From positions 1-45,786 of the IMG/VR virus record IMGVR_UViG_3300007344_000051: a stretch of DNA of 45,786 nucleotides, one strand, 5' to 3'. The DNA comes from a virus. Under the pieces are notes generated by a model. That model had not been told where the DNA came from and did not search any database. It saw only the letters and a program-made list of their open reading frames with translations. Below are positions 33,775 to 34,503 of the stretch, piece by piece; position 1 is the first letter of the stretch; each line of letters opens with the position of its first letter. Position numbers and translations under genes: made by a program.

Positions 33775-33803
33775 ATTTTAGCATAAAAAAAGGAAGGGAT
33801 CAA
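33775..33803 (-). promoter_or_regulatory. sigma70-type promoter interleaved with a terminator
   Basis: The -35 TTGATC (33803-33798), a 17-base spacer and -10 TAAAAT (33780-33775) precede the 58-residue gene and thyX. The -35 box contains the TGA stop of the 29-residue ORF and lies in the loop and 3' stem of the hairpin terminator. Confidence 0.65.
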
Positions 33804-33810
33804 CCCTTCC
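33785..33810 (-). terminator. intrinsic terminator
   Basis: On the minus strand GGAAGGG, loop TTGA, TCCCTTCC form an 8-base-pair stem (33792-33810) followed by seven T (33791-33785). The stop codon of the 29-residue ORF lies in the loop. Confidence 0.85.
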
Positions 33811-33889
33811 TGTTTAACAGCATGACTTCCAAATAAATTAAGAGTATAAAAATCATTGATGCTGCAGTAATAGCTGCAACTACAATCAT
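33800..33889 (-). CDS. 29-residue membrane peptide
   Basis: It reads MIVVAAITAASMIFILLIYL then EVMLLNRKG: one transmembrane helix (residues 2-21) with a short positive tail. The ATG overlaps the TGA of the 39-residue ORF (ATGA), and its own TGA lies in the terminator loop, so it closes the operon. It is too short for homology by eye, but the coupling and single clean helix support it being real. Confidence 0.6.
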   Translation of the reverse strand: MIVVAAITAASMIFILLIYLEVMLLNRKG

Positions 33890-34005
33890 TTTTTTGCTAC
33901 CTGGCAGTGACCTGCCATACACATTTGTGCATCTTTAAGTTTTTGATCTTTGACTTGCTTTGCCTTAATGACAGAGAGCCAATTGGAAGTTTGATTTGTT
34001 TTCAT
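33886..34005 (-). CDS. 39-residue hypothetical protein
   Basis: It begins MKTNQTSNWLSVIKAKQVKD and ends DAQMCMAGHCQVAKK. It is basic and mostly helical, with a Cys-x5-Cys pair (CMAGHC) near the end. The ATG overlaps the TGA of the DUF4278-like gene and its TGA overlaps the next ATG, so it is one of a chain of coupled microgenes. The function is unknown. Confidence 0.6.
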   Translation of the reverse strand: MKTNQTSNWLSVIKAKQVKDQKLKDAQMCMAGHCQVAKK

Positions 34006-34145
34006 TTTGCAACCTCTACTTTTTTAGTGAACTTCATTCCACGGTAAGTTAAAGTAAATTCTTTTACTTCAGTATTATTTTGAGGTTGTTCGATGTCATA
34101 ATCGACACCGCGATATGTTGTTTTTGTGCTGTAAAGATTAAGCAT
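34002..34145 (-). CDS. DUF4278-like small protein
   Basis: A 47-residue protein with two YRG motifs: TTYRGVDYD near the start and LTYRGMKFTKKV near the end. This pair, with the MLNLYSTKTTYRG start, is the hallmark of DUF4278, a small family common in cyanobacteria and their phages. Its function is unknown. The ATG at 34145 has a good Shine-Dalgarno sequence (TAGGAGT) nine bases upstream, which rules out the longer frame that runs back to 34274. Confidence 0.72.
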   Translation of the reverse strand: MLNLYSTKTTYRGVDYDIEQPQNNTEVKEFTLTYRGMKFTKKVEVAK

Positions 34146-34225
34146 TGTTTTACTCCTAAAGAAATGAGATTTAACCTTCTCTGCTAAGCAGGATCCGTTT
34201 TCCCGTTCCTTCAGTCGTGTGCGTC

Positions 34226-34414
34226 CTATGAGTCTTCTAGTTGAAAACATACAGGATCTGTATGATCCATCCATTTGAAGACTAGACTAACCTTTTCAGA
34301 TACACTAAAAAGCTCAGATTCTAACAATCCCTGACTTAAAAACTCAAAATCTTCACATCGAAGATAATTCGATTGAGGGACATGTGTTGCTAAAAGCAAG
34401 GAGAGTAAAAACAT
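34226..34414 (-). CDS. short peptide downstream of a riboswitch-like leader
   Basis: A 62-residue protein. Residues 1-11 are hydrophobic (MFLLSLLLATH). The centre NYLRCEDFEFL then a helical SVSEKVSLVFKWM resembles the short peptides encoded after Downstream-peptide (glutamine riboswitch) RNAs in marine picocyanobacteria, which often carry a YLRC-type aromatic motif. In cyanobacteria some such peptides inhibit glutamine synthetase, but I see no direct sign of that here. The ATG at 34414 follows the structured leader and its GGAG Shine-Dalgarno sequence. It heads the chain of microgenes down to the 33785 terminator. Confidence 0.68.
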   Translation of the reverse strand: MFLLSLLLATHVPQSNYLRCEDFEFLSQGLLESELFSVSEKVSLVFKWMDHTDPVCFQLEDS

Positions 34415-34468
34415 AGGATGAACGCTCCGTTCCGCGACTTACTTGCGACCCAGAAGGGTTGAACGTAT
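34415..34468 (-). ncRNA. glutamine-riboswitch-like leader (Downstream-peptide/glnA type)
   Basis: The predicted transcript starts near 34468. P1 is CGTTC (34465-34461) with GAACG (34432-34428). P2 is ACCC, loop TTCT, GGGT (34459-34448). Then comes CGCAAGTAAG (34447-34438), matching the conserved junction segment (CGGAAGTAAG or CGCAAGTAGG) of glutamine riboswitches. A second CGTTC (34424-34420) can pair with the same GAACG, with GGAG caught between. The known family sits in Synechococcus, Prochlorococcus and a cyanophage, upstream of short peptide genes, as here. I see no clear P3 helix, so this is a compact form. Confidence 0.72.
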
Positions 34469-34474
34469 AAATGC

Positions 34475-34503
34475 ATTATAACATGTACTATCTATATAGA
34501 CAA
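34475..34503 (-). promoter_or_regulatory. strong sigma70-type promoter
   Basis: The -35 TTGTCT (34503-34498), a 17-base spacer and a consensus -10 TATAAT (34480-34475) place the transcription start a few bases before the riboswitch-like P1 helix. Confidence 0.85.

Follow-up and report, generated by a model that had tools for sequence, protein, structure and literature searches.

A putative glutamine-I-type riboswitch with a small gene nested between its halves in a cyanobacterial virus

Introduction

Riboswitch annotation presumes a compact aptamer located upstream of the gene. Glutamine riboswitches in cyanobacteria mostly precede DUF4278 genes and activate their expression upon glutamine binding, and IF17, a glutamine synthetase inhibitor, has an N-terminus related to DUF4278 proteins (PMC6316151). 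The glutamine-I aptamer has an E-loop, and glutamine is bound in the published glutamine-I and glutamine-II structures alike by the C-G pair of P1, the triple next to it and the G of CGC (PMC6698751). Glutamine-II in marine picocyanobacteria is associated with DUF4278 (PMC6698751). Glutamine binding in vitro by a glutamine-II aptamer in two pieces makes a split aptamer physically reasonable; according to the same authors, glutamine-I would need full unpairing to come apart (PMC6698751).

The element described in this work shares with glutamine-I (glnA, RF01739, type 1) the P1/P2/P3 three-way layout, the P1 sequence CGUUC/GAACG, the strands AGUA/GAA, the ligand-contact nucleotides and a downstream DUF4278 gene, but a second core and, in the majority of the cassettes collected, an entire gene lie within its P3, and in the window studied here its score is below gathering. 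With glutamine-II (Downstream-peptide, RF01704, type 2) it has in common the CGUUCA-P2-CGC-GGAACGG core and a small downstream ORF, whereas it has no long stem flanking the 3' pseudoknot strand and presents the E-loop strands of type I. Tandem glutamine doublets also contain two glutamine cores per leader, but they are successive complete aptamers with an intervening ORF disallowed (PMC9481103), unlike the present locus, where the halves interleave and the ORF lies inside. In the metE B12 riboswitch of M. tuberculosis, a short uORF is translated within the aptamer and affects downstream expression (PMC11260477); that case concerns one species, a different class and a UUG start, whereas here there are hundreds of loci, both the start codon and the stop codon form part of the putative aptamer and naturally empty versions exist.

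Among phages, glutamine riboswitches are known in Melnitz, Mosig and AG-345-P14 (PMC9004378) and in S-CREM1 (PMC9964418; also PMC9602691), and one survey of cyanomyophages reported no riboswitches (PMC7029224). A nested ORF, a second core and a DUF4278 cassette are not described in the accessible portions of the reports on these phages (PMC9004378, PMC9964418). A search of open-licence papers gave no account of a gene lying inside a glutamine riboswitch, which is not proof of novelty.

Results

The window analysed was the whole 45,786-nt stretch of the IMG/VR record IMGVR_UViG_3300007344_000051; the virus carrying the element is a cyanobacterial virus, and all parts of the element lie on the minus strand. 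An original prediction from sequence had proposed a glutamine-riboswitch-like leader at 34415-34503, and the features that it named were all present on that strand: a sigma-70-type promoter, TTGTCT-17-TATAAT with an extended -10 (TG), with 10 of 12 matches (34475-34503; consensus match only), the leader motifs CGTTC (34465-34461) and GAACG (34432-34428), the P2 hairpin ACCC-UUCU-GGGU (34448-34459) and a 62-codon ORF with its ATG at 34414. The junction CGCAAGTAAG occupies 34447-34438. Of the 223 cassettes listed, 171 have a -10-like hexamer, one of a set of common variants, no more than 30 nt ahead of the aptamer; the designation of the leader as belonging to an early transcript derives solely from the sigma-70-type promoter match. 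In many relatives (L011-L018 and others), this promoter is overlapped or replaced by ATAAATA-type sequences similar to T4-like late promoters, which suggests that the cassette may also be expressed late.

With Rfam 15 at the gathering cut-offs (33 bits for RF01704 and 35 bits for RF01739), no match was obtained at the leader, and the whole window gave two tRNAs only. At a permissive threshold, both glutamine families matched the same 48 nt of the leader, each with 25.9 bits (E 2e-4 for RF01704 and 2e-3 for RF01739). The long stem of RF01704 (linker and sequence 3' of GGAACGG) was mostly gapped or broken in the alignment of the window, and the 61-nt leader folded alone was no better than its shuffles (z -0.29). 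A 131-nt leader query retrieved 440 phage records among the matches listed, approximately 420 of them cyanophages. Since the leader is common to these cyanophage records and its paired positions covary in relatives, it is not a chance occurrence, and the predicted conservation of the pairs at the same locus in other cyanophages was borne out.

Related loci were collected with near-exact search patterns, and therefore the apparent invariance of their sequences is overstated; the counts given below are counts among the matches listed and not frequencies, and related sequences are not independent. A cmscan of 20 related loci returned the same glutamine families, for most loci at the corresponding position and for two loci above gathering. 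The locus alignment revealed a near-invariant block and, unexpectedly, repeats of two motifs: CGUUCA recurs immediately ahead of the start codon, and CGC...GGAACGG recurs where the peptide gene ends. This second half was present in 188 of the 191 first-half loci listed. The spacing from the second CGUUCA to the second CGC was bimodal, 12-27 or 140-203 nt with none between, the long form being the one that holds the ORF. The matches listed comprised 223 distinct cassettes, of which 175 carry an ORF and 48 lack one, and both forms occurred in the AGTCG and in the AGCCG subtypes of P3. The RNA of the ORF-less relatives is the same, its P2' loop being short. The flanks of L262, which has no ORF and a P2' of UCUCC-UUU-GGAGA, and of L221/L276, which carry a 57-codon ORF, are 94% identical upstream and 93% identical downstream, and therefore the ORF is placed exactly in the P2' loop.

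The RF01739 gathering cut-off was reached by the ORF-less relatives L169, L039, L083, L009, L067 and L008, and in five ORF-less relatives this model put P1 and P3 on the outermost strands, with 40.3-46.4 bits. L008, the ORF-less member of the family carried by AG-345-P14, also reached 33.0 bits with RF01704, whose cut-off is 33. The glutamine aptamer originally predicted was thus right in kind, as judged from the scores of 40-46 bits in ORF-less relatives and from the covariation of the paired positions, but its anatomy was incomplete, with only the 5' half covered, and the proposed covariance-model search left the window itself below both cut-offs. Because of this score, we name the window element a divergent, gene-split relative and not a certified RF01739 member; its aptamer is missed by the standard models because it is interrupted by the gene.

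The 3' half, CGCACACGACTGAAGGAACGG, was located at 34223-34203, about 200 nt downstream of the leader and past the peptide gene. The sequence supports the two halves, when joined, as a putative glutamine-I aptamer with P1, P2, P3 and the E-loop strands AGUA/GAA. This outer aptamer would be assembled from strand a (CGUUCA, 34460-34465), the 5' strand of the outer P1, invariant in the alignment and placed on the RF01739 P1 in relatives; the P2 hairpin; CGC-AAGUA (34440-34447), which combines the ligand-core CGC with the E-loop strand AGUA, is invariant and aligns to the RF01739 junction in relatives; the P3 strands AGUCG (34435-34439) and CGACU (34213-34217); and GAA-GGAACGG (34203-34212), which combines the E-loop strand GAA with the outer P1 3' strand b' and is aligned to GAAGGAACG of RF01739 in relatives. 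P1 CGUUC/GAACG, P2 and P3, the latter with moderate support, are thereby found around a three-way junction, as in glutamine-I. The strand letters AGUA (34443-34440) and GAA (34212-34210), which we take to be those of the glutamine-I E-loop, flank the P3 strands at the sequence level. The canonical P1 partner of CGTTC is GAACG at 34208-34204, beyond the peptide gene; the GAACG at 34432-34428, to which the original prediction had assigned this role, is an alternative partner and part of the inner core.

P3 would enclose a second, rearranged copy of the aptamer core. It comprises strand b (GGAACGG, 34427-34433; invariant), an inner-core P1 strand pairing with a' in the predicted whole-element fold or with a in a tandem fold, strand a' (the second CGUUCA, 34419-34424; invariant), P2' and the second CGC (34221-34223), which is invariant in the alignment and is non-coding in the window, yet kept. 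The 5' strand of P2', UCCUAUG (34412-34418), holds the start codon of the ORF and is a 7-bp complement of 34230-34224, with covariation, and the 3' strand, CAUAGGA (34224-34230), supported by sequence and predicted fold, holds the stop UAG (34228-34226). The ORF would therefore be the loop of P2', with AUG in one strand and the stop in the other or, in other members, in the P3/E-loop junction. Intact second aptamers are present in ORF-less relatives. The ligand-contacting positions of the published structures (PMC6698751) are kept in both the outer and the inner cores, both of which may bind glutamine.

The nested architecture is supported by sequence, covariation, predicted fold and the comparison of empty and filled relatives. 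In 36 diverse ORF-bearing loci, 96.5% of the cells of the nested structure were paired, and covariation was 0.281; shuffling gave 0.102 (0/500) and sliding no more than 0.077. Covariation is strong in P2 and P2' and moderate in P3: the signal came mostly from P2, with changes on both sides in all four pairs, and P2', less from P3, and the P1 strands were without any variation. P2' matching was 105/115 versus 84.5 after swapping (0/5000; 0/20000 in a further swap test), and for the long types of P3 it was 83/100 versus 70.7 (0/5000). The swap test of the 5-bp P3 within ORF-bearing loci was not significant; in these loci a double change was seen in one of the five P3 pairs only, and the third pair was often A.C. 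Variants of P3 across the halves include AGUUG/CAACU, GGaCGG/CCGcCC and AGcCGaCU/AGcCGaCU, and pair 8 changes from U-A to A-U in the AGCCG group. In this subtype (L220-L335), the strands of P3 are almost the same sequence (AGCCGACU with AGCCGACU) and mispair as A.C at positions 3 and 6, a pattern that resembles duplication of one half. For the 268-nt window RNA, the unconstrained minimum free energy fold was the nested structure (z -2.25).

The nested ORF (34226-34414) encodes 62 aa and belongs to PHROG 13397, a family of function not known. Homologues were found in 41 phage records with 40-55% identity, and a search from the 62-aa peptide alone gave five near-identical loci. Purifying selection was observed in two ORF families of relatives (median pN/pS 0.27 and 0.48). 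GGAG (34425-34428), located between b and a' and 10 nt before the ATG, is its likely Shine-Dalgarno site. The ORF ends with the UGA in ACUGAAGG or the UAA in ACUAAAGG in 159 of the 175 ORF-bearing cassettes listed; in the window and nine other cassettes the stop codon is within the P2' strand. Since the start and the likely Shine-Dalgarno site are inside the structure and the 3' end of the ORF is the 3' half of the aptamer, translation must open P2' and, in most relatives, P3. The peptide gene had been predicted merely to follow the aptamer; instead it lies inside, and the most likely target of control is the DUF4278 gene downstream.

This DUF4278 (PF14105) gene, at 34002-34145, encodes 47 aa and scored 31.0 bits with Pfam, for which gathering is 25.3; the next gene was of the YRG/DUF4278 type in 210 of the 223 cassettes listed. 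The sequence UUUCUUUAG (34156-34164) is the complement of CUGAAGGAA (34214-34206) and overlaps the Shine-Dalgarno AGGAG of that gene (34157-34153), the duplex in the window having 9 bp and -8.6 kcal/mol. In the relatives, an aptamer strand C-U-G/A-A-A-G is complementary to CUUC/UAG running into the DUF4278 Shine-Dalgarno site, and the G/A letter of the aptamer is coupled to the C/U letter near the Shine-Dalgarno (Fisher p 6e-16; 4e-12 within the P3 subtype of the window), with 97 G-C, 57 G-U, 53 A-U, 2 A.C and 6 G.G combinations, that is, 207/215 pairable. Within one subtype, the Shine-Dalgarno-side duplex energies were only about 1.8 sd better than those of swapped pairs. Between the aptamer and the DUF4278 gene there is an optional hairpin, ACGGAUCC-stem-GAGAAGGUU (34169-34202), with varying complementary stems, found in 23 of the 223 cassettes listed in 20 distinct forms and with no Rfam match. 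A terminator-like hairpin with a T run downstream lies at 33791-33811 (consensus match only).

Discussion

Our findings are, as a whole, best explained by a glutamine-I-type riboswitch with a nested gene, in which glutamine turns the DUF4278 gene ON and peptide synthesis and glutamine sensing are mutually exclusive, an explanation that we consider likely. Without glutamine, the aptamer strand would cover the DUF4278 Shine-Dalgarno site through the helix CUGAAG/CUUCAG; glutamine would stabilise the outer P1 and P3, so that the strand would be held in P3 and the E-loop and the Shine-Dalgarno site freed. The covariation of this helix, together with the host precedent, suggests that the DUF4278 gene is activated by glutamine as in hosts, and we infer that the phage may sense host nitrogen in this way. 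In the folded RNA, the nested ORF would have its start site concealed, and ribosomes translating it would have to unwind P2' and P3 and then stop on the aptamer 3' strand. As deduced from this geometry, peptide synthesis and glutamine sensing probably exclude each other. More tentatively, and with somewhat less than even confidence, we propose a two-input RNA device, with two putative glutamine sites back to back around the shared P3 and the gene as the loop of a helix, in which translation of the nested gene, through ribosome occupancy, and glutamine binding would act as mutually exclusive inputs and together set the expression of the DUF4278 protein and of its companion peptide during infection.

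A dynamic four-strand switch, in which the RNA alternates between tandem and nested pairings and glutamine or ORF translation chooses between them, would be compatible with the nested-gene riboswitch and would extend it, and we regard it as possible though doubtful. Both a and a' are perfectly complementary to b as well as to b', the predicted energies are a few kcal/mol apart and the two cores are kept in both states; the invariance of P1, however, is equally explained by ligand contacts, and the states are known here from predicted folds.

A plain tandem of two independent, pseudo-cooperative glutamine aptamers (a-b and a'-b'), with the ORF in the second P2 loop and no long-range P3, appears unlikely. 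Against it, P3 covaries across the halves, AGUA is present in the first half only and GAA in the second half only, RF01739 prefers the outer pairing in five relatives and the nested fold is lower in energy in most of the loci tested. In the AGCCG subtype, nested and tandem pairings are similar in predicted energy, and covariation cannot choose between the two because the strands a, b, a' and b' never vary. Moreover, glutamine-I doublets are common (157 doublets; PMC9481103), CGUUCA-P2-CGC-GGAACGG is found in each half, the second tandem unit of L008 alone scored 37.8 bits, above the RF01739 cut-off, and local pairing would form first during transcription. It was because Rfam aligned the outer halves that the tandem reading was replaced by the nested one.

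The reading closest to a Downstream-peptide RNA, in which the 62-aa peptide is the sole target of the leader and the match further downstream a decoration or relic, is improbable. The peptide is conserved and its start codon and probable Shine-Dalgarno site are within the structure, but both halves and the DUF4278 gene persist in the ORF-less forms, and covariation links the Shine-Dalgarno-side helix to the aptamer 3' strand. A conserved DNA element or recombination hotspot in place of an RNA, to which the very high conservation of the primary sequence of the cores could point, can be practically dismissed, since P2 and P2' show compensatory changes despite the gene between them, relatives match Rfam at gathering and the covariation already disfavours it.

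The nested arrangement is common in marine cyanophages. It offers a natural test of the distance possible between aptamer halves and of the competition between translation and ligand binding, and also of a possible use of host glutamine status by phages to adjust nitrogen metabolism in the host by means of DUF4278 proteins.

A scan of 84,980 genomes for hosts, using a nested pattern with fixed window-type spacing and tail, returned one contig, L215 (1-8000), labelled as a Euryarchaeota archaeon TMED129 MAG. An archaeal origin is disfavoured: since the contig carries PhoH, ThyX and other cyanophage-like genes in addition to the nested cassette, it is most likely a mis-binned cyanophage contig. 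In L039, a PhotoRC-II RNA above gathering (1021-1116) is found on the same contig as the ORF-less cassette. In the window, genes for tRNA-Ile (TAT) and tRNA-Leu (TAA) are located at the left end, at 49-214 on the minus strand.
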